DNA from: Sphingomonas sp.
GTDB taxonomy: Bacteria > Pseudomonadota > Alphaproteobacteria > Sphingomonadales > Sphingomonadaceae
Reading direction: 5' to 3'
DNA length: 64,000 nt
NCBI RefSeq assembly: GCF_019746665.1
Contig: NZ_JAIERS010000012.1
Span: forward strand, 186,001-250,000
The notes below the pieces were generated by a model. It did not search any database, had not been told where the DNA came from, and saw nothing but the letters and a program-made list of their open reading frames with translations. Positions within the stretch are counted from its first letter, which is position 1; each line of letters opens with the position of its first letter. The translations under genes were made by a program, and so were the position numbers. Below are positions 388-9,891 of this stretch, one piece after another.

Positions 388-1974
388 TTAGAAACTATAG
401 CGCGCGCCCAGCAGCGCCTGAAGCGAGGTTACGTCGCCGAACCCGTCCTGGCCGCTATTATAGATGCCCAGCGCGGCGACCGCCCCCAGTCGCCCGAAGC
501 GCCGGGTGAGCGCGGTCGTCGCCCCCACGCCATAGACCCGGGGCGCACCGATGATGCCGCTGCGGAAGTAATTGGCGAAGACATTGGCGTCGATCGTCGT
601 CTTGGCGTCGAGCTGGCGCTGGACATAGGCCTGCAGATAGACGCTCTCGTCCTGCAGCCCCGCCACCACGACGCCGGTGCCGCCATTGGGCGCGACATAG
701 CGGCGATTGGCATAGCCAAAGCCCAGCCCATAGGCCCAGCGCCCGCGATTAACCGAGACCACCGCGTCGATCCCGCGCGCGCGATAGGCGCTGGTCTGCG
801 CCGATTGCAGCGCGCCGTTCAGGCAATTGCCCGCCGCCCCGCCCTGCGGCCCGAACACGCAGCCGTTGAAATCCTGCCCGAACGGATTGGTCTGGGTATT
901 GAACGCGGTCGGCGCGGCGGCGAGCCCGCCCTGCACCTGGCGGCCAAAGGTCTGGATGCCGTCATAACCCGACACCCGCACCGCGACATTCTTGCTCGGC
1001 TGGTAAGTGAACTGGCCGATCGCGGTGAAGCTGCCGTAACGCTCGCCGGCATGAACCTCTAGCTGCGTGCGCGGGCTCGGCCGCCAGATGAAGCCGCCGT
1101 CATAATAGACGCCGCTGAAGTCATAGGCGACGCGGCGCAGCCCGGCGGGGTCGATCTGGAAGCGACCACGCGCGTCGCGCACCGGCTGGCCGGTCGCGTC
1201 GAGCAGGATGTCGCGCTGGCTGACCTGGATATTCTCATAGCCCGCGCCCGCCGTCAGCGCGAGCGTGGGGAGCACCGGCCACACCACGTCGCCGCGGCCA
1301 TATTTGCCGTCATAACGCTGGCGCAGCTGCCCCGCATCGTCGCGCGCCCAGGCACCCGACACGGTGACGCCCACCGGCAGATAGACATTCGCCGGCAAGC
1401 TGACGCTGCCCACCGCCAGATGGCTCGTCGAATCGTCGAACACGTCGAGCGGCGGCTGGCCGGGCAGCGGGCTGGCGATGCTCGGCCCCTGGAACTTGGT
1501 ATAGCCGAAGCGGTACTGCGCCGAGACGCTGAGCGGCCCCGCCGTCGTCGCGAAGGTCGGGCCGGCATACACCGCGTAGAGCTGGCCGACATTGGCGACA
1601 TTGCCCGTCAGCACCCCCGGCGCGGACCCGCGAATGTCGCTGCGGGTCCGCGTCGCGAGCGCGCCCGCCTCGATCGTCAGCGGCCGCGCGACCTGCACCG
1701 CCCCGCGCAACAGGCCGGTATGGATGTCCACATCCTCCAGCCGCCCGTCATAGGGAATGCGCCGCTCGTAGCGATAGCTCGCCTGCACGTGCACCCGCCG
1801 CGTCTGGACATTGGCGTCGATCCCGGCGGCGACGGTGGTGTAGGTGAGCGTGTCGTCGAAATCGGTGGTCACGACCTGCCCGAGTTCGATGTACGGCGTG
1901 ATCTGGCGGCTGTTCTGCGCCGCGGCGGGGCTCGCCGCGGCCAGGATGCCGAACGTCAGGAGCGCGGCGCGCAT
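388..1974 (-). CDS. Outer-membrane beta-barrel protein of the XrtA/EPS locus
   Basis: This 528-residue protein has a clear signal peptide (about residues 1-20, cleavage after SPAAAQ). The rest is rich in alternating polar/aromatic strands and ends in Phe (ARYSF), the usual C-terminal signature of BAM-inserted barrels. The N-terminal part (TTDFDDTLTYTTVAAGID) matches my recollection of the uncharacterised PEP-CTERM-associated outer-membrane proteins (TIGR03016/BBP2 type) found beside the tyrosine kinase in sphingomonads. Its ATG shares one base with the kinase stop, so the two are probably translationally coupled. The role is unknown; an EPS export or surface-anchoring porin is an inference. 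Confidence 0.75.
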   Translation of the reverse strand: MRAALLTFGILAAASPAAAQNSRQITPYIELGQVVTTDFDDTLTYTTVAAGIDANVQTRRVHVQASYRYERRIPYDGRLEDVDIHTGLLRGAVQVARPLTIEAGALATRTRSDIRGSAPGVLTGNVANVGQLYAVYAGPTFATTAGPLSVSAQYRFGYTKFQGPSIASPLPGQPPLDVFDDSTSHLAVGSVSLPANVYLPVGVTVSGAWARDDAGQLRQRYDGKYGRGDVVWPVLPTLALTAGAGYENIQVSQRDILLDATGQPVRDARGRFQIDPAGLRRVAYDFSGVYYDGGFIWRPSPRTQLEVHAGERYGSFTAIGQFTYQPSKNVAVRVSGYDGIQTFGRQVQGGLAAAPTAFNTQTNPFGQDFNGCVFGPQGGAAGNCLNGALQSAQTSAYRARGIDAVVSVNRGRWAYGLGFGYANRRYVAPNGGTGVVVAGLQDESVYLQAYVQRQLDAKTTIDANVFANYFRSGIIGAPRVYGVGATTALTRRFGRLGAVAALGIYNSGQDGFGDVTSLQALLGARYSF

Positions 1975-2864
1975 CAGGCGTCCTCCATTCCATAATAGCC
2001 GAAGCGGCGCGGCCCGGCGGTGAAGGTGACGGCGTTGAGCAGCAGGCTGATCGAGGGGCAGCCGTCGAGCAGCGCCACCGCCTCGCGCAGATCGGTCTCG
2101 CCGGTGCGATCGGCGCGGGCGACGAGCACCACCTGCCCCACTTGCAGCGCAAGCGCCGCCGCCGCGCTCGCGGCGAGCGTGGGCGGCGAATCGAGAATGA
2201 TCAGCCGCTGCGGATCGGCGGCGAGCAGCGCGTCGAGCAGTTCGCCCAGCCGCGCGCTCGCCAGCAATTCGGTATCGGCGTTGCTGCGCGCGCCGGCGCC
2301 CAGCACCGACAGCGTGCCGAGATCGGTCGGCACGATCAGCCCCTCGATCGCGAGCCGGGGATCGGCCAGCGCGTCGAGCAGCCCCGGCCCTTCCTTCAGC
2401 CCCAGCCGGCCGAGCACATCGGGCTTGGCGACATCGGCGTCGATCAGCAGCACCGCGCCCTCGCGCTCGGCGGCGAGCGACAGCGCGAGGTTCATCGCGC
2501 AGAAGGTCTTGCCCTCATTCTGGTGCGGCGAGGTGACGAGCACGAGGCGTGAGCGATCGCCCACCTTCCCCGCCAGCGCGCGGGCGTTGAGCAGCAATTG
2601 CCGCTTGGCGAGCCGCATCTCCTCGGCGAGCGGGGTCACCGCGCCGCCGGGCACGATCAGCCCCGCCGCTTCGATCACCGCGCGGTCGATCGGCACGCGC
2701 ACCGGCGCCTCGACCGGCGGGACGAAGCGCACCGGGGCGGACTCGGTCGCCGGCGCCGGCGCCACGGCGGGCGCCGCCACCGGCGGCATGGCTTCACGGG
2801 CGCGGAACGCCTCGCCAAAGTCATAGACCGTCGCGGCGCGTTCGAGCAGCGATCCCCGGCTCAT
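1974..2864 (-). CDS. XrtA-associated tyrosine autokinase (BY-kinase, CpsD/Wzc C-domain type)
   Basis: This 296-residue cytoplasmic P-loop kinase has a Walker A region at residues 112-121 (SPHQNEGKTF), a Walker A' motif at 138-147 (VLLIDADVAK) and a Walker B strand (LIILDSPP). An Ala/Pro-rich N-terminal linker (about 24-56) precedes the kinase fold. The tail has only a short tyrosine pair (GYYGMEDA) rather than a long Tyr cluster. It matches the stand-alone kinase of PEP-CTERM/EPS loci, which pairs with the separate Wzz-like membrane activator. That activator is encoded immediately upstream with a 4-nt ATGA overlap. The predicted role is control of EPS chain length and export through autophosphorylation. 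Confidence 0.9.
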   Translation of the reverse strand: MSRGSLLERAATVYDFGEAFRAREAMPPVAAPAVAPAPATESAPVRFVPPVEAPVRVPIDRAVIEAAGLIVPGGAVTPLAEEMRLAKRQLLLNARALAGKVGDRSRLVLVTSPHQNEGKTFCAMNLALSLAAEREGAVLLIDADVAKPDVLGRLGLKEGPGLLDALADPRLAIEGLIVPTDLGTLSVLGAGARSNADTELLASARLGELLDALLAADPQRLIILDSPPTLAASAAAALALQVGQVVLVARADRTGETDLREAVALLDGCPSISLLLNAVTFTAGPRRFGYYGMEDA

Positions 2865-4372
2865 GCCGCCATCCCCCGTTGAATGAATTCGACCCCGATC
2901 AGCGCGACATAGGCGACCACCAGCCCCGCCCCGCCGCCGGCGAAATAGAGCAGCCGCTGGCGGCGCAGCGTGCGCTGTGCCTCGGTCACCACTTCGCTCA
3001 GCGCGCCGATCACCGGCATCCCGGTCGCCTTTTCGAGCCGGCGCGGAGTCGGGAACGTCGTCTTGAGCTGCCCCGCCGCGAACGCCGCGCCGATGCCGAC
3101 GATCAGCCCGGCGATCAGCACCGCCGTCAGCAGCATCGGCCGGTTGGGCGCGCTGGGGGTGCGCGGCGCGCTCGGCGGATCGACCACGGTGAACTTGATC
3201 GCGCCCTGCTGGTTCTGCACCTGCCCGCGCAGCTTGATCTCCTCGCGGTCGGCGAGCATCTTGTCGTACTGGTCCTTCAGCACCTGATAATCGCGCTCGA
3301 TCTGGCCCTGTTCGGCGGCGACATCGGGATCGCCCGACAGCTTGGCCTGGAGCTGGTTGAGATCGTTCTGCAACTGCGCCTTGCGCGCGCCGAGCGCGGC
3401 GACTTGTGCCTGCTTTTCGGCCTGGGCGGGCTTGAGCGCGGCGAACACCGGGTTCGCCTGCGCCGCCGTGCCGGGCTGGAGCGGCTCGTTGCGCGCCGCC
3501 GCCAGCGCGAGCGCGAGCTGCGCGTTGAGCGCCTTCACATCGGGATGCTCGTCGGTCCAGCCGCGCGCGCGCGCCTCGGCGAGCTGGCCCTGGATCGCGT
3601 TCACCCGCGCCCGCGCCGGCCCCGCGACCCCGGGCGCCCCGCCCCCGGTCGTGGCGCCCGCGCCCGCGAGCTGACCGTTGATCATCGCCAGACTCGATTG
3701 CGCCGCCGCCAGATCGCTTTCCACCTGCGCCAGCTGGCTGCGCGCGCTCGCCAGCCGGTCGGTGAGCGAGCCTGTGCCCGGCAGGCTCGCCAGATAGCGG
3801 TTCTGGAAATCGGCCTTCTTCGTCTCCAGCGCCTGCAACTGCTGCTGGCGCTGCCCCAGCTGACCATCGAGGAAAGCGAGCGTGCTGCTCGTCTCGTCGC
3901 GGTCGCCCTGGAGATTCTCTTCGATGAAGATGTCGATCGTCTTCTGGACGATCTGCTTGGCGAGCTTGGGGCTGTTCGCGCTCGCGCTGATCTCGAACAG
4001 ATTGTCCTGCTGCGCGACGACCTTGATCGCGTTCTGCAGGCCCGCGACACGGTCTTGCACATCACGCTCGGTCGCGACCGTGTTGGCGAGATCGGTGCCG
4101 CGCACCACCTTCGCCAGATTGACCGCCGAGGTCAGCGTCTGGCGCACTCGGTCGATGCCCTTGGCCTGTTCATCGGGGGTGATGCCGATCTTGCCGGGCA
4201 GGATCGACTGGACGATCACCGAGACGCGCGCCTTGGCGGCATAGCTCGCCGGGATTTGCGCGACGACGAACCAGCCGAGCACGCACACGCCCCACGCCAC
4301 CGCCAGCGCCAGCCAGCGCCTGGCCCAGATGCCGTGGAGCGCGATCCGCAATTCGTCGTAAAGGCCGTTCAC
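2861..4372 (-). CDS. XrtA-system polysaccharide chain-length determinant (Wzz/GNVR family)
   Basis: This 503-residue inner-membrane protein has a first TM helix at about residues 20-40 and a long periplasmic region with Gln/Ala-rich coiled coils (about 160-390). A proline-rich segment (DPPSAPRTPSAPNRP) precedes a second TM helix (MLLTAVLIAGLIVGIG), as in Wzz proteins. A further hydrophobic segment lies near the C-terminus. The start is a GTG at 4372. It lies between the Wza-like export gene (14 nt away) and the BY-kinase (4-nt overlap), the usual order of a co-polymerase split from its kinase. It should set EPS chain length at the inner membrane. Confidence 0.9.
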   Translation of the reverse strand: MNGLYDELRIALHGIWARRWLALAVAWGVCVLGWFVVAQIPASYAAKARVSVIVQSILPGKIGITPDEQAKGIDRVRQTLTSAVNLAKVVRGTDLANTVATERDVQDRVAGLQNAIKVVAQQDNLFEISASANSPKLAKQIVQKTIDIFIEENLQGDRDETSSTLAFLDGQLGQRQQQLQALETKKADFQNRYLASLPGTGSLTDRLASARSQLAQVESDLAAAQSSLAMINGQLAGAGATTGGGAPGVAGPARARVNAIQGQLAEARARGWTDEHPDVKALNAQLALALAAARNEPLQPGTAAQANPVFAALKPAQAEKQAQVAALGARKAQLQNDLNQLQAKLSGDPDVAAEQGQIERDYQVLKDQYDKMLADREEIKLRGQVQNQQGAIKFTVVDPPSAPRTPSAPNRPMLLTAVLIAGLIVGIGAAFAAGQLKTTFPTPRRLEKATGMPVIGALSEVVTEAQRTLRRQRLLYFAGGGAGLVVAYVALIGVEFIQRGMAA

Positions 4373-4385
4373 CCCCCGCGCCCCC

Positions 4386-5012
4386 TTAGAACATGCTTTC
4401 GGGGATGATGATCACGTCCCCCGGCTGCAGGCGGACATTGGCGCGCGAATCGCCGTTCTTGAGCAGGTTCGACAGGCGCAGCGCATATTCGCGCTGCTTG
4501 CCGCTGCCCCGGTCATAACGGATCAGCCGGGCGCGATTGCCGGCGGCATATTGGTTGAGCCCACCGACCGCGATCATCGCGTCGAGCACGGTCATGTTCG
4601 CGCGATAGGGGATCGCCGCCGGCTTCTCGGTCGCGCCGACGATGCGGACCTGCTGGCTAAAGGTGCCCGCGAAATTCTCGACGATCACCGAGACGATCGG
4701 ATCCTTGATATACTCACCCAGCGCCAGCTTCATGTCGTCGGCCAGCATCGCCGGGGTCTTGCCGACGGCGGGCATGTCGTTGATCAGCGGCGTGGTGATG
4801 CGGCCATCGGGGCGCACCTGCACCTTCGCGCTCAGCTCCGGATTGCGCCACACGAAGATGTTGAGCTGATCGAGCGGGCCGATCACATATTCCTCGCCCG
4901 GCACTTCCTGGGTCGCGACATAGCTCGCCGGGGGCAGTTCGGGACGGGCGCCGGTGGTGCACGAGGCCGGCACCAGCAGCGGCAGCGTGACGATGACGAT
5001 CGGCAGACGCAT
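4386..5012 (-). CDS. XrtA-system polysaccharide export lipoprotein (Wza-like)
   Basis: A 208-residue protein starting at the ATG at 5012 (MRLPIVIV). The open frame extends further upstream, but this start gives a proper lipoprotein signal with lipobox VPAS-C (Cys at residue 18). A Poly_export domain follows (YVIGPLDQLNIFVWRNPEL, about residues 45-125), then an SLBB-type segment (VRIVGATEKPAAIPYRANMTVLDAM). The C-terminus ends in LQPGDVIIIPESMF, typical of the family. It should form the outer-membrane or periplasmic channel for EPS with the Wzz-like protein encoded next. It lies 73 nt after the decarboxylase gene. Confidence 0.92.
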   Translation of the reverse strand: MRLPIVIVTLPLLVPASCTTGARPELPPASYVATQEVPGEEYVIGPLDQLNIFVWRNPELSAKVQVRPDGRITTPLINDMPAVGKTPAMLADDMKLALGEYIKDPIVSVIVENFAGTFSQQVRIVGATEKPAAIPYRANMTVLDAMIAVGGLNQYAAGNRARLIRYDRGSGKQREYALRLSNLLKNGDSRANVRLQPGDVIIIPESMF

Positions 5013-5085
5013 TTTCTCAACCTCCAGCGGTCGCCGGACACGCTCGCGCGTGCCGGACGGGCAGCTTTCGGCATGGGCTATGCGC

Positions 5086-6345
5086 TTAAGAGGTGAAGAT
5101 AGCGTTAGGAACGTTGGCCGCGCCGGCCACGATTTCGGGCGGATTTGCATGGCCCAGGAAGGCGTTGGGGCTCGCCGAGCGGCCATAGGCGCCCGCCAGG
5201 AACAGCGCGATCACGTCGCCGATCCGGGCCTCGGGCAGCGCGACCTGATCGCCCAGCCGATCGAGCGGGGTGCAGAGGCAGCCGACAACATTCACCGTCT
5301 CATCAGCCGCCGCCCCCATTCTATTTGCGACGACGATCGGGTAGTTGCGCTGCACCACCGTGCCGAAATTGCCGCTCGCCGCGAGCTGATGGTGGAGCCC
5401 GCCATCGGTGACGAGGAAGACCTGCCCGCCGCTCTCCTTGCGATCGACGATCCGCGTCAGATAGACGCCACATTCGCCCACCAGCCAGCGGCCAAGCTCG
5501 ATCGCGAAGCGGGTATCGGCGAGCACCGCGTCGCGTTGGTCCAGCGCGTCCCCCAGCGCCGCGCCGACCGCCACGACATCGAGCGGCGCGTCGCCCGGGA
5601 AATAGGGAATCCCGAAGCCGCCCCCCAGATTGACCAGCGGCGGCGTGGCGCCACTCTCGCGCGCCAGCCGCGCCGCGAGCGCCACGGTCTGCGCCTGCGC
5701 CTCGATGATCGCGCGGGCATCAAGCGCCTGCGATCCCCCGAAAATGTGGAAGCCGCGCCACTCGGCGCCCGCCGCGATCAGCCGCCGGACCAGCGCGGGC
5801 ACGCGGACCGCGTCGATGCCGAACGGCGAGGGTCGCCCGCCCATTTTCATCCCGCTGCCGCGCAGCTCGAAATCGGGGTTCACCCGCACCGCGAGCCTTG
5901 GCCGCACCCCCAGGCGCTCGGCGATGGCGAGCGCGCGGGCGGCCTCGCCCTCGCTTTCCAGATTGACCGTCACCCCCGCGCCGATCGCCGCTTCGAGTTC
6001 GGCGTCGCGCTTGCCGGGTCCGGCGAAGCTCACCGGCTGGCCGGGCGCCTGCTCCCGCACCAGCGCGAGTTCGCCCGACGAGGCGATGTCGAGCCCATCG
6101 ACCAAAGGTGCGATCGCGCGTACCAAAGGCGGGCACGGGTTCGCCTTCACGGCATAATGCACCCCGAGCCCCGCCGGCATCGCCGCGCGCAAGGCCGCGA
6201 TCCGCGCGGCGACGATGCCGGCATCATAGACGAACAACGGCGTCGTCCCGGCAAGCGCGATCCAATGATCGAACGGTTCGCCCGCGATCATCAGCACGCC
6301 CTGTTGCGCCGCGAACTCGCGCGGGAGCGGGCCGGTGGGTTTCAT
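5086..6345 (-). CDS. PLP-dependent decarboxylase, exosortase-A system associated
   Basis: A 419-residue fold-III PLP enzyme of the diaminopimelate/ornithine decarboxylase class. The PLP lysine is K67 in HYAVKANPCPP, and the phosphate-binding glycine loop is NLGGGFGIPYFPGD. The active-site Cys region is VVGCLCTPLDRLGD. The ATG at 6345 overlaps the ligase stop by 4 nt; the open frame continues upstream to 7104, but that part lies inside the ligase gene. This family (TIGR03099 type) is conserved in XrtA loci with a ligase and an ACP; its substrate is unknown. It is unlikely to be LysA itself, judging by context. Confidence 0.9.
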   Translation of the reverse strand: MKPTGPLPREFAAQQGVLMIAGEPFDHWIALAGTTPLFVYDAGIVAARIAALRAAMPAGLGVHYAVKANPCPPLVRAIAPLVDGLDIASSGELALVREQAPGQPVSFAGPGKRDAELEAAIGAGVTVNLESEGEAARALAIAERLGVRPRLAVRVNPDFELRGSGMKMGGRPSPFGIDAVRVPALVRRLIAAGAEWRGFHIFGGSQALDARAIIEAQAQTVALAARLARESGATPPLVNLGGGFGIPYFPGDAPLDVVAVGAALGDALDQRDAVLADTRFAIELGRWLVGECGVYLTRIVDRKESGGQVFLVTDGGLHHQLAASGNFGTVVQRNYPIVVANRMGAAADETVNVVGCLCTPLDRLGDQVALPEARIGDVIALFLAGAYGRSASPNAFLGHANPPEIVAGAANVPNAIFTS

Positions 6346-7838
6346 GGCGTCACTTCCCGCTTCAGCGCCGCGCGATCGAGCTTGCCATTGGCATTGCGCG
6401 GCAGCGCCGCGCGCCACTCGAACCGCGCGGGCTGCATGAAATTGGGGAGCAACCCCTTCAGCCGCGCGCGCAACGCACCCTCGCGCGCCGGATCGCCGCG
6501 CAGCACGACCAGGATCGCCTGCCCCAGTCGCTCGTCGGGCACGCCGATCGCGACCGCTTCGGCCGCCTCGCCGCCTGCGACAACGGCTTCCTCGATCTCG
6601 CTCGGGCTGATGCGGTTGCCCGCGCTCTTGATCATCTCGTCCTCGCGCCCGACGAAGCGGAGCAGGCCGTCCGCCCCCGCGACCACGGTATCGCCCGACC
6701 AGACCGCCACGCCCTGATGCTCGGCGAAGCTCGGCGCGGGGCGGAAGCGTTCGGCGGTACGCTCGGGATCGCGCCAATAGCCTTGGGCGACGAGCGGGCC
6801 GGCATGGACCAATTCGCCCGCCTCGCCCGGCGCGGCGCGGCTGCCATCGGGGCGGACCACCATCACCTCGGCGAAGGGGATCGCCCGCCCGATCGCCTCG
6901 GGGTGCGCGTCGACCAACGCGGGGTCGAGATAGGTCGAGCGGAACGCCTCGGTCAGGCCATACATCGCGTAAAGGTCCGCGCCCGGAAAGCGCGCGCGCA
7001 GCCCGCGCACCAGCCGTTCGCCCAGCGCGCCGCCCGAATTGGTAAGCCGCTTGAGCTTGCCCGCGATCTCGGGCGGCCATTCGGCCTCGAGCAGTTGCAC
7101 CCAAAGCGGCGGCACCCCGGCGAGGGTGGTGGCGTCATGCCGATCGACCGCCTTCACGACATCGCGCGCGGTGAGATAGTCGAGCGGGATCACCCGGCCT
7201 CCGGCTGCCCAGGTGGAGAGCAACTGGTTCTGCCCATAATCGAAGCTGAACGGCAGCACCGCGAGCACGCGGTCGGCCGGCGTGAGCTTCAGATAATGCG
7301 CGACGCCGATCGCGCCGAGCCAAAGATTGGCATGGCTCAGCATCACCCCCTTGGGCCGCCCGGTCGAGCCGCTGGTATAGAGGATCGCGGCGAGGCTCCG
7401 CGGATCGGCGGTGCTGGGGGGGAGCGGGTCGGCGCCGCCGGTCTCGTCCTCCAGCACCACGCGCGCCTCGGCGCGATCACCCGTCTCCAACGTCGCGGCT
7501 CGCGCGGGCTGGGTGATGAGCAGCCGCGCGCCGCTATCGGCCAGGATATGCGCGACCTGCGCGCGCTTGAGCAGCGGGTTGATCGGGACATGCACCAGCC
7601 CGGCGCGCGCGGCGGCGAGCGGCATCAGGCAGGCGATGCGGGTTTTCGGGAGCCAGGTCGCGATCCGGTCGCCTGGCGTCAGGGCTTGCGCCAACAGCCA
7701 GGCCGCGAGTTCGCCAACGGCGCGCTCCAACCCGGCGTAGGTCAGCGTGCCGCCGCGGTCCTCCAACGCGATCGCCTCGGACGCGACACGCGCGCAGAGG
7801 TGATCGAGCGGGCGCGGCACGGGATCGGGCGGTACCAT
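6342..7838 (-). CDS. AMP-forming acyl-CoA/acyl-ACP ligase, exosortase-A system associated
   Basis: A 498-residue adenylate-forming enzyme. The AMP-binding P-loop is ILYTSGSTGRPKG (about residues 154-166), and the A5 motif is MYGLTE. The C-terminal catalytic lysine lies in NANGKLDRAALK. It probably activates a carboxylic or amino acid as an adenylate and loads the acyl carrier protein encoded at 8220. The stop overlaps the decarboxylase start (ATGA), implying coupled translation. The small DUF3072 gene lies 60 nt upstream on the same strand. The substrate cannot be read from the sequence. Confidence 0.9.
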   Translation of the reverse strand: MVPPDPVPRPLDHLCARVASEAIALEDRGGTLTYAGLERAVGELAAWLLAQALTPGDRIATWLPKTRIACLMPLAAARAGLVHVPINPLLKRAQVAHILADSGARLLITQPARAATLETGDRAEARVVLEDETGGADPLPPSTADPRSLAAILYTSGSTGRPKGVMLSHANLWLGAIGVAHYLKLTPADRVLAVLPFSFDYGQNQLLSTWAAGGRVIPLDYLTARDVVKAVDRHDATTLAGVPPLWVQLLEAEWPPEIAGKLKRLTNSGGALGERLVRGLRARFPGADLYAMYGLTEAFRSTYLDPALVDAHPEAIGRAIPFAEVMVVRPDGSRAAPGEAGELVHAGPLVAQGYWRDPERTAERFRPAPSFAEHQGVAVWSGDTVVAGADGLLRFVGREDEMIKSAGNRISPSEIEEAVVAGGEAAEAVAIGVPDERLGQAILVVLRGDPAREGALRARLKGLLPNFMQPARFEWRAALPRNANGKLDRAALKREVTP

Positions 7839-7898
7839 GCCGCCTTGATAGCGGCGCGGGGCTGCATGTGAAGGGCGCGGGACTGCCCGGGCGGGGCG

Positions 7899-8129
7899 CT
7901 AAACGCGCTTTTCGGCGCCACGTCCGGTCTTGGCCTGCAGCGCGTCGATCCGGCGCGAGGCCTCCGCCTTGGTGAGATTGGCGTCGAAATCCTCGCCCGC
8001 TTCCTCGCTTAACGTCTTCAAATAACTCGCTTGTGCCCCCGTCATCGGCTGGTCGCCGGTGGTCCAATCGGCGGGGTCTTTTTCAGCGTTTGAAAAGGGT
8101 TCGGTCTTGGGATTGGCATGGTCGGTCAT
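7899..8129 (-). CDS. Small DUF3072-type protein
   Basis: A 76-residue soluble, charged protein (MTDHANPKTEPFSNAEKDP...). The core segment WTTGDQPMTGAQASYLKTLSEEAGE and the following LTKAEASRRIDALQ resemble the DUF3072 family, whose function is unknown. The start chosen is the ATG at 8129; the open frame continues to 8294 but would overlap the divergent ACP gene. It sits between the two arms of the XrtA locus on the minus strand, an uncommon place for this family. It may be an unrelated passenger. Confidence 0.7.
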   Translation of the reverse strand: MTDHANPKTEPFSNAEKDPADWTTGDQPMTGAQASYLKTLSEEAGEDFDANLTKAEASRRIDALQAKTGRGAEKRV

Positions 8130-8219
8130 GGCGGCGCTCCTCGCCGCGCTCAACGGCCGCCGGCCGCCAGCGTTCCCCCGCCTTGGCAGCGCGCCGCCAA
8201 GGCGGTACGCACGCGCACC

Positions 8220-8492
8220 ATGACGCCCATGCACGAAACCCAGGTCGACGAAGTGGTCCGCGCGGTGCTGAGCGACGTGCTCGGCATCGCCCATGATCGC
8301 GCGGCCGCATTCACCACCGATACTGGCCTGTTCGGCGCGCTTCCCGAGTTCGATTCGATCGCGGTCGCCGGGGTGCTGACCGAGCTCGAGGATCGGCTTG
8401 GCATCCTGATCGACGATGACGAGGTGGAGGCCGAAATGCTCGAAAGCTTCGGCGCGCTCACCGCCTTCGCCCGCGCCAAGGTGGCTGGTTGA
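8220..8492 (+). CDS. Acyl carrier protein, exosortase-A system associated
   Basis: A 90-residue carrier protein. The phosphopantetheine serine is in PEFDSIAVAG, followed by the acidic helix (VLTELEDRLGILIDDDEVEAE) typical of ACPs. The start is the ATG at 8220; a second in-frame ATG at 8229 is also possible. The stop overlaps the TTG start of the next gene (TTGA), so the two are translationally coupled. It is the probable partner of the divergently transcribed ligase at 6342-7838. Confidence 0.9.
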   Translation: MTPMHETQVDEVVRAVLSDVLGIAHDRAAAFTTDTGLFGALPEFDSIAVAGVLTELEDRLGILIDDDEVEAEMLESFGALTAFARAKVAG

Positions 8493-9124
8493 TCGACGCT
8501 TATGACTGGCGCGGCGGGCGCGAGGCGATACTACGCTTCGGCCCCGTGGGGACGCCGGTCGTGATGCTGCTGCTGCCGCTGTTCGAGGAGCATAACCGCA
8601 CGCGGGCGTTCGGCGTCGGCGTGCTGCGCGCGCTTGCTGCGCGAGGGATCGCCGGCGCCTTGCCCGAGCTCCCAGGTCAGGGCGAGAGTTTGGTGCCGAC
8701 AGAAGCGCTACGATTGGCCGATCTTCGTGCCGGAGCAGCGGCGGCGGCGGCGAAGCTCGGGCGACCGTTCATCGCGTCGATCCGCGGCGGCGCCTTACTC
8801 GATGCGGATGCCGAGGTCGCCGGGCGTTGGCGGCTGAGCCCGCAGTCGGGTGCCGATCTCGTCCGCGAATTGCGCCGGTTGCGTGCCCAGGGAGACGGCC
8901 TGACGGTGGCGGGCAATGCGGTGAGCGAAGCCCAGCTCGGCGAGTTGGGGGACGCCGACTATGCACCCGGCCGCGTCGTGCGATTGGAGACCGACCCTGC
9001 GCCAGCCGACCGACGCTTGGCCGGTCCGCCGTTGTGGCGTCGCGCCGAGCCCGGAAATGATTCAGCTTTTATCGAGGTGGTTGCGGCCGATATCGCCGAA
9101 TGGATCGCAACATGCGGCGGCTGA
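8489..9124 (+). CDS. Alpha/beta hydrolase 2 of the exosortase-A locus
   Basis: A 211-residue protein with the N-terminal strand/loop MLLLPLFEEHNRTRAF and the ALPELPGQGES segment characteristic of the exosortase-A-associated hydrolase 2 family (TIGR03101 type). No clear GxSxG elbow is visible; the corresponding region reads IASIRGGALLD. The start is TTG at 8489, overlapping the ACP stop. It may act as a thioesterase or acyltransferase on the ACP-bound product, but this is inferred only from context. Confidence 0.8.
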   Translation: MIDAYDWRGGREAILRFGPVGTPVVMLLLPLFEEHNRTRAFGVGVLRALAARGIAGALPELPGQGESLVPTEALRLADLRAGAAAAAAKLGRPFIASIRGGALLDADAEVAGRWRLSPQSGADLVRELRRLRAQGDGLTVAGNAVSEAQLGELGDADYAPGRVVRLETDPAPADRRLAGPPLWRRAEPGNDSAFIEVVAADIAEWIATCGG

Positions 9125-9891
9125 TCGCCTTCGCTTGCGCGGGTGAGACGTTGCTCGGCAGCCTCGATGAGGCCGCTGGTAGCACCGGCCTGCTGATCGT
9201 ATCCGGCGGCAATGAAGTGCGCGCCGGCGCCCACCGCGGCATGGCGTCACTCGCGGGGCAGGTGGCGGCCACGGGCTTCCCGGTGTTCCGCTTCGATCGG
9301 CGCGGTGTGGGCGACTCGAGCGGAATAAATAGCGGCTACGAAGGCGCCCGTGACGATCTGCTCACCGCGCTCGACGCCTTTAGCGACGCGGCCCCGCATG
9401 TTACGCGGCTGATCGGCTTCGGGAATTGCGACGCGGCGAGCGCGCTGCTGCTCCACGCCCCTGATCGCTTCGCACGGCTGCTTCTCGCCAACCCCTGGAC
9501 GATCGCGGAAGCCGCCCCCCTCCCCCCGCCCGCCGCGCTCCGTGCGCACTATGCCGAGCGGCTACGCGACCCGGCGAGTTGGCTGCGGCTGCTGCGGGGC
9601 GGCATAGATTTACACAAGTTAGTCAGAGGGCTAGGGGCAATTGCTGCGGCACGGCATGAAACCCTGTCGGCACTGGAGCAGGCGCTGTTCGGGGCGCTCG
9701 CCGCGCACCCCGACGCCCGGCTGTTACTCGCCGAGGGCGACGCCACGGCGATTGCCTTCGCCGACGCCGCGCGCCGCGCCGGCTGGGAAGGGAATGTCAC
9801 ACGGCTCGCGACCGCCTCGCACAGCTTCGCCCGGCCCGAAGACAAGACGGCGCTTCAGAAGTGGATACTGGCGGGGCTGAGCGAAGACTAG
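9112..9891 (+). CDS. Alpha/beta hydrolase 1 of the exosortase-A locus
   Basis: A 259-residue alpha/beta-hydrolase (TIGR03100 type). LLIVSGGNEVRAGAHRG carries the conserved N-terminal signature, and FDRRGVGDSSG is the usual loop after strand 4. The nucleophile elbow reads GFGNCDAAS, placing Cys106 where a serine is expected. The start chosen is ATG 9112 (MRRLIAF), inside the upstream gene end; ATG 9100 is an alternative. It overlaps hydrolase 2 and ends the plus-strand arm of the locus. Confidence 0.85.
   Translation: MRRLIAFACAGETLLGSLDEAAGSTGLLIVSGGNEVRAGAHRGMASLAGQVAATGFPVFRFDRRGVGDSSGINSGYEGARDDLLTALDAFSDAAPHVTRLIGFGNCDAASALLLHAPDRFARLLLANPWTIAEAAPLPPPAALRAHYAERLRDPASWLRLLRGGIDLHKLVRGLGAIAAARHETLSALEQALFGALAAHPDARLLLAEGDATAIAFADAARRAGWEGNVTRLATASHSFARPEDKTALQKWILAGLSED

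Follow-up and report, generated by a model that had tools for sequence, protein, structure and literature searches.

Ligase, carrier and hydrolase-fold genes at an exosortase A locus

We analyzed a stretch of 64,000 nucleotides (hereafter the window) from the 3.1 Mb genome of a Sphingomonas sp. (contig NZ_JAIERS010000012.1, positions 186,001 to 250,000), in which five genes at positions 5086-9891 stand beside the exopolysaccharide (EPS) export genes of an exosortase A (XrtA) system. Two leftward genes, encoding an adenylating ligase and a pyridoxal phosphate (PLP) decarboxylase, diverge from three rightward genes, which encode an acyl carrier protein (ACP) and two hydrolase-fold proteins (hydrolase 1, h1, and hydrolase 2, h2). 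A first-pass annotation had described these enzyme classes in a divergent, overlapping arrangement, and NCBIfam and Pfam matches, together with the coordinates, bear this description out. Inspection of the bases gave overlaps of 4 nt (ligase/decarboxylase), 4 nt (ACP/h2) and 25 nt (h2/h1). The five genes are:

5086..6345, minus strand: BtrK-type PLP fold-III decarboxylase (TIGR03099), predicted isoaspartyl-ACP alpha-decarboxylase
6342..7838, minus strand: VinN-like ANL adenylating ligase (TIGR03098), predicted aspartate (beta-COOH)-ACP ligase, with D200, S268 and R300
8229..8492, plus strand: stand-alone ACP (PF00550), phosphopantetheine site D42-S43; an alternative start at 8220 is possible
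8489..9124, plus strand: h2, in the 'hydrolase 2' position, starting with TTG; Arg99 occupies the nucleophile elbow of an alpha/beta-hydrolase fold, and no hydrolytic activity is predicted
9100..9891, plus strand: h1 (TIGR03100), Cys-Asp-His triad, predicted acyltransferase or thioesterase

The ligase (628.2 bits; cut-off 592.35), the decarboxylase (546.9 bits; cut-off 478.45) and h1 (207.6 bits; cut-off 168.45; match on 9115-9891) score over the cut-offs of TIGR03098, TIGR03099 and TIGR03100, respectively. The link of such a set to exosortase A is already known from the NCBIfam names. The association with exosortase A made in the first-pass annotation holds in this genome, where XrtA is encoded about 9 kb away from the decarboxylase gene, as well as in 27 of 30 genomes with the decarboxylase (see below).

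The best relatives of the window h1 come from Sphingomonas and other Sphingomonadales. Among the best 80 loci of 201 h1 relatives, 71 hold all five genes, indicating that the grouping is not due to chance; the other nine are without ligase and decarboxylase, and in these the h1 match lies at most about 3.1 kb from the contig end with which the locus begins. The commonest order (47 of the 80 loci) is h1-h2-ACP divergent from ligase-decarboxylase-export-chain length-kinase-outer-membrane protein. For residue counts, we aligned sequences of at least 430 (ligase), 360 (decarboxylase), 200 (h1), 170 (h2) and 70 (ACP) amino acids, setting aside four h2 genes that also match the h1 profile and one h1 gene that matches the h2 profile. 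The D42-S43 site of the ACP is kept in 113/113 rows.

The ligase and its predicted substrate

The best single-domain PDB match of the ligase by phmmer is 3wvn (181 bits), which, like 3wv4, we take to be VinN, the ligase of vicenistatin biosynthesis. A profile search gave 312 bits for 3wvn and 282 bits for the next single-domain chain, multi-domain chains scoring higher by summing two domains. When the fragment spanning the substrate pocket was searched alone, 3wv4 and 3wvn led with 67 bits, followed by a match of 45 bits. Residues D246, S315 and R347 of the 3wvn/3wv4 chain equal VinN D230, S299 and R331 plus 16 in numbering, which fits the VinN identity; the latter three are named as recognition residues in PMC7756342. 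All three are present in the window ligase, where they align with D200, S268 and R300. D200 and R300 are invariant in 105/105 ligases (the window ligase counted once), and position 268 is Ser in 92, Thr in 12 and Ala in one. The genome itself has 11 AMP-binding places, 10 of which could be aligned: the ligase, with its D/S/R trio, and nine paralogues, none of which has the trio. The chain 5jjp has Ala at the position of the ligase Arg; this protein is presumably CmiS6, with a substrate that lacks a second carboxylate.

Fatty-acyl loading was rejected, given that the ligase has the amino- and carboxylate-binding residues and the nine aligned paralogues do not. VinN loads 3-methylaspartate and FlvN loads aspartate, and VinO decarboxylates the ACP-bound form, according to PMC11284099. 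No glutamate mutase was found in the window's own genome, so that we rejected 3-methylaspartate as the substrate and consider plain aspartate the likeliest one.

The decarboxylase

The closest solved relative of the decarboxylase is BtrK of the butirosin pathway, an L-glutamyl-[BtrI ACP] decarboxylase, with 231 bits versus 137 for the next PDB match, a diaminopimelate (DAP) decarboxylase; with a profile of 25 relatives the scores are 415 and 283 bits. The two proteins share C-T-P-x-D and S-P-x-x-F-L-G-H, reading C-T-P-L-D and S-P-N-A-F-L-G-H in the window decarboxylase and C-T-P-E-D and S-P-V-H-F-L-G-H in BtrK. Among 110 aligned decarboxylases, the PLP lysine K67 and C358 are kept in all, and T359 and P393 in 109, the exception being a fold-III decarboxylase paralogue from the same genome (L005) that is itself below the LysA cut-off. 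The genome's own LysA (TIGR01048, 420.5 bits), encoded elsewhere, reads C-E-S-G-D and S-T-Y-N at those sites, and it is presumably C-E-S-G-D and Y-N that contact the distal end of DAP. A LysA function for the window decarboxylase was rejected because its TIGR01048 score (211.9 bits) is below the cut-off of 297.9, its motifs differ and LysA is present elsewhere.

The BtrK-type motifs indicate that the decarboxylase bears the pocket marks of an enzyme working on a carrier-bound substrate, and we predict that it acts on an aminoacyl-ACP rather than on a free amino acid. This comparison with BtrK and VinO rests on BtrK, the VinO sequence not being part of it. From the decarboxylase tree (41 sequences, eight open forks and two very long outgroups), we used the 30-row clade (support 98/97) and the nesting of two sequences, those of genomes G155 and G396, within one family (f1). 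The first-pass annotation had suggested loading of an amino or carboxylic acid onto the ACP followed by decarboxylation; the VinN residues and BtrK signatures support this order of events and narrow it to aspartate, attached through its beta-carboxyl and converted to beta-alanyl-ACP.

The hydrolase-fold proteins

The triad of h1 consists of C110, D214 and H241 counted from position 9100 (C105, D209 and H236 in the shorter numbering), and Cys-Asp-His is found in 106/106 rows. A structural model of h1 (mean predicted local distance difference test score, pLDDT, 91.7) has as its nearest folds the esterase 3pf9 (Z 22.5, root-mean-square deviation (rmsd) 3.3 over 211 residues) and the thioesterase DcsB (Z 22.2, rmsd 2.5 over 200 residues), and a PDB profile search with h1 returned only distant hydrolases. 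A Cys nucleophile would suit thioester exchange.

In the case of h2, the match to TIGR03101 is far outside the family (E 0.15, 11.6 bits versus a cut-off of 202.75), and there is no Pfam hit. We assigned it by its position, by 104 aligned relatives with the same motif and by a confident alpha/beta-hydrolase model (pLDDT 94.1; Z 18.5 to 7wwh, rmsd 3.0 over 199 residues); a PDB profile search gave as its best match a ribosomal protein (E 0.0096), the rest being weaker. At the elbow, R99 is kept in 104/104 rows, as are E34, R39 and W183, and N36, R130 and E187 are kept in 103. The TIGR03101 cut-off is exceeded by three of the aligned relatives (L035, L037 and L038, with 318.2, 298.2 and 265.5 bits), which also have the Arg elbow; they come from other families, indicating that the Arg is not a sphingomonad quirk. 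With Arg at the nucleophile place, h2 cannot, as its residues read, act as a conventional Ser or Cys hydrolase, and it may serve as a binding or scaffold partner. Thus, of the two alpha/beta hydrolases claimed initially, h1 has a complete triad and h2 keeps the fold but not the nucleophile. The fold matches of both proteins are to general esterases, which are uninformative on substrate, and other families may lie outside the match lists.

A GNAT gene in many relatives

A homologous sixth gene, of the GNAT type, occurs in 57 of 121 stretches scanned, in 47 of these 57 between the ACP and ligase genes on the ACP strand (midpoint test). These are 47 of the 80 best h1-relative loci and 10 of 38 loci from a second genome sample (example, L140:7704-8816). 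We scanned 54 of the 57 genes, leaving out one fragment, one merged with the ACP frame and one with extra length; all 54 match PF13480 (Acetyltransf_6), the Pfam family to which FemAB of XrtA loci also belongs. Four representatives had no NCBIfam match below E 0.02, and phmmer with one of the genes gave nothing at E 10. The gene was not found in six further genomes of the window's genus. Ten genomes of the survey described next have it, all with XrtA and h1, although h1 in one of them (G126) is just below its cut-off.

Co-occurrence with XrtA

The gene co-occurrence survey proposed in the first-pass annotation was run over 398 genomes of the window's phylum, with h1 searched in 47 of them. The decarboxylase tracks XrtA: over cut-off, it is found in 30 genomes and XrtA in 35, with both in 27 (Fisher 1.5e-31, uncorrected for kinship, 19 of the 30 belonging to family f1). 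h1 is over cut-off in 26 of the 47 genomes, all with XrtA and the decarboxylase, and a 27th, G126, reaches 166.0 bits against 168.45. None of the three decarboxylase genomes without XrtA has h1 over cut-off (58 bits in G107, no match in G155 and G396), nor does any of the eight XrtA genomes without the decarboxylase, two of which (G007 and G375) show weak partial hits. This pattern indicates that h1 follows XrtA plus the module, while the loading module can stand alone.

G107 has its module within a gene cluster of polysaccharide type, alongside a glycosyltransferase, a deacetylase, a DegT aminotransferase, a hexapeptide transferase and a sugar oxidoreductase. G155 and G396 show no XrtA, FemAB or h1 match; they are on separate branches within f1 (the tree forks being moderately supported), a placement suggesting that XrtA, FemAB and h1 were lost twice while the module stayed. 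A type III polyketide synthase-like gene (L041:5021-6178, minus strand; PF00195/PF02797) is found at a distance of about 1 kb from the stand-alone module in G396. FemAB (TIGR03019) was considered as the specific transferase of the set and rejected, being present in 35/35 XrtA genomes and in 32 others, with or without the set.

Proposed function and alternatives

We propose, with a probability of about 0.5, that the five genes form an aminoacyl-ACP module like those making beta-amino-acid starters in antibiotic pathways, used here at the cell envelope with an acceptor of the EPS/XrtA locus. The ligase would adenylate the beta-carboxyl of L-aspartate and load it onto the stand-alone ACP, as we infer from residues and homology. 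The BtrK/VinO-like PLP enzyme would then strip the alpha-carboxyl on the carrier, leaving beta-alanyl-ACP. Taken by themselves, these two steps are probable. More speculatively, h1 and the degenerate h2, joined in many relatives by the GNAT protein, might transfer the beta-alanyl group to an acceptor that the XrtA/EPS locus produces, for which a polysaccharide amino sugar is the likeliest candidate. The earlier idea that the EPS or the sorted proteins are decorated is plausible only; it draws on the co-occurrence of h1 with XrtA, the GNAT gene of the relatives and the polysaccharide cluster of G107.

In the vicenistatin (VinN/VinL/VinO) and bolagladin (BolO/BolC/BolN) pathways, a stand-alone ligase, an ACP and a PLP decarboxylase act, as proposed here, on a carrier-bound beta-carboxyl thioester. 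The vicenistatin pathway has in addition a second ligase (VinM), a transferase (VinK) and a polyketide synthase; their place is taken in the present set, beside EPS and XrtA genes, by a hydrolase with a Cys nucleophile, a degenerate one and, in many relatives, a GNAT protein. The butirosin system differs in its loading ligase, BtrJ, presumably an ATP-grasp enzyme, whereas the ligase here is of the ANL family, and in its amino acid, glutamate there and, by our prediction, aspartate here. A glutamate version of the module, in which the ligase would load the gamma-carboxyl of glutamate and the decarboxylase would yield 4-aminobutyryl-ACP as in butirosin, draws on the naming of BtrK, the closest solved decarboxylase relative, for glutamyl-ACP; we regard it as unlikely. 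It is very improbable that the genes belong to ordinary metabolism, with a fatty-acyl ligase, a LysA-like decarboxylase and thioesterases in no joint pathway. That reading is favored by the annotation names only ('acyl-CoA ligase', 'decarboxylase', 'hydrolase'), and it is opposed by the 71/80 loci with five genes, the co-occurrence with XrtA, the VinN and BtrK signatures and the separate LysA.

Several observations weigh against the proposed module and its use at the envelope. By profile, VinN leads other adenylation domains by a modest margin (312 vs 282 bits), and the GNAT gene was not found in the window and its 20-kb flanks. Eight of the 35 XrtA genomes have no decarboxylase over cut-off (in G368, the ligase match is also below cut-off), showing that XrtA does not need it, and FemAB occurs in all 35 as well as in 32 other genomes. 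The f1 genomes G155 (locus L046) and G396 (locus L041), both of completeness 100, keep ligase, ACP and decarboxylase genes with no internal stops, and this retention without XrtA indicates that the product has a use independent of XrtA. No paper on beta-alanine in EPS was recognized among the literature listings with abstract openings. Finally, 197 of the 398 genomes have PanD, but not one of the 30 whose decarboxylase is over cut-off does (Fisher 6e-10, without correction for kinship).

This last pattern favors a role in pantothenate and coenzyme A (CoA) supply. Ligase, ACP and decarboxylase would then convert aspartate to beta-alanine by a non-canonical route in place of PanD, with beta-alanine released from the ACP for PanC and the EPS link reflecting location or a second use. 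The inferred net conversion would be that of PanD and PanP, achieved with an ACP thioester and ATP by different protein families. Among the 30 decarboxylase genomes, PanC is present in 29 (41/43 of all genomes searched) and PanP is absent from 26, 25 of which have PanC, so that the gene pattern fits in 25/30, again uncorrected for kinship. All 19 sampled f1 genomes keep the decarboxylase, including the two without XrtA, FemAB and h1, and the f1 genomes have PanC and neither PanD nor PanP. The rows of Table A2 of PMC7142369 that were available also list sphingomonads with zero PanD (ADC); two of them, Citromicrobium JL354 and Erythrobacter SD-21, whose module content was not checked, have zero PYD3, AAM, GabT and GAD as well. 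The module could be the sphingomonad aspartate-to-beta-alanine route.

PanP, another source of beta-alanine, exceeds its cut-off in 10 of 48 genomes, which belong to families f40 and f83; six have XrtA but no module and four have the module. In the latter four (G126, G318, G342 and G348) the module is accompanied by XrtA and h1; given these genomes and the tie of h1 to XrtA, we do not take vitamin supply as its only role. A role in CoA supply would leave unexplained h1 and h2, their absence where XrtA is absent, and the clustering with EPS genes. No releasing thioesterase was identified in G155 and G396; h1 was rejected for this step across all lineages, having no match in these two genomes. 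Four of nine genomes with a below-cut-off decarboxylase have PanD (G010, G022, G149 and G185). The loss of PanD is largely by shared descent, with 19 of the 30 genomes in one family. PanD is also lacking from 171 of the 368 genomes that have no over-cut-off decarboxylase, and the other routes to beta-alanine (uracil, transaminases and polyamines) lie outside the searches made. The part of PMC7250832, a Sphingopyxis model, that was available makes no mention of pantothenate. Overall, we consider pantothenate supply possible but doubtful as the explanation of the set, about half as probable as use at the envelope. The two uses would share beta-alanyl-ACP as the product, the envelope use being tied to XrtA and a vitamin use possibly applying where PanD is missing.

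An extension of the envelope proposal, which we think improbable, concerns exosortase itself. The periplasmic nucleophile for exosortase was left 'unknown' by Haft et al. 2006 (PMC1569441). In this extension, the beta-alanyl group would provide exosortase A with its missing amine acceptor. The XrtA locus would deacetylate an EPS amino sugar, the ACP module and its transferase would add beta-alanine, and the free amine would attack the thioester between XrtA and the sorted protein, linking PEP-CTERM proteins covalently to EPS. Such an acceptor would be a Gram-negative counterpart of the pentaglycine acceptor of sortase.

Among the literature listings with abstract openings, we recognized no paper that gives a reaction for the set. 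The available part of PMC1569441 has no mention of a ligase, decarboxylase, hydrolase, FemAB or acyl carrier, and none of the module's enzyme terms is present in that of PMC9850573, on floc formation. In the portion of PMC11340318 (on Sphingomonas EPS) at hand, transposon hits fall in an exosortase-associated amidotransferase gene, and neither 'decarboxyl' nor 'acyl carrier' appears. New in this analysis are the assignment of ligase and decarboxylase to the VinN and BtrK types, backed by a residue test, the distribution of h1 with XrtA and of PanD, the degeneracy of h2 and the GNAT gene. Homology, residues, co-occurrence and gene order are direct observations and the folds are predicted by modeling, whereas substrate, reactions and acceptor are deduced. 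NCBIfam associates TIGR03098 to TIGR03101 with exosortase A under names without a reaction, and a concrete substrate, carrier and product make them testable. If delivered to the envelope, the product would be an aminoacyl modification of EPS and a candidate acceptor for XrtA; if used for pantothenate, it would fill a gap in the vitamin B5 synthesis of sphingomonads, with PanD lacking in 19/19 f1 genomes. Either way, antibiotic-style carrier chemistry would serve core or envelope work.

Neighboring genes

The EPS export genes that the first-pass annotation placed next to the set are confirmed as XrtA-type by two matches over cut-off (TIGR03027 and TIGR03007). The other features near the five genes are:

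388..1974, minus strand: weak outer-membrane (TIGR03016) match, 24.9 bits versus a cut-off of 90.85
1974..2864, minus strand: XrtA-associated tyrosine autokinase-like protein (TIGR03018), 193.1 bits, below the cut-off of 230.65
2861..4372, minus strand: XrtA-system chain length determinant (TIGR03007), over cut-off
4386..5018, minus strand: XrtA-system EPS export protein (TIGR03027), over cut-off
7899-8129, minus strand: DUF3072 protein of 76-77 amino acids (PF11272), encoded where the ligase and ACP genes diverge

A simple C-terminal pattern, applied to the window and to 20 kb on either side, detected no PEP-CTERM protein, which says little on the remainder of the genome. The window opens within a gene for a TIGR03015-type ATPase, part of which it contains, and the 20 kb to the left of the window contain XrtA (TIGR03109), FemAB (TIGR03019), a deacetylase (TIGR03006), a glycosyltransferase (TIGR03087) and an amidotransferase (TIGR03108), all over cut-off. 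The DUF3072 gene shows no sign of belonging to the five-gene set. An open reading frame of 672 amino acids (5086-7104, minus strand) runs through the ligase gene in another frame, the true start of the decarboxylase being at 6345. In a relative, G270, the ligase and decarboxylase genes are separated by one that encodes VanZ and Wzy_C domains (L035:11252-14440, minus strand), providing another polysaccharide link.

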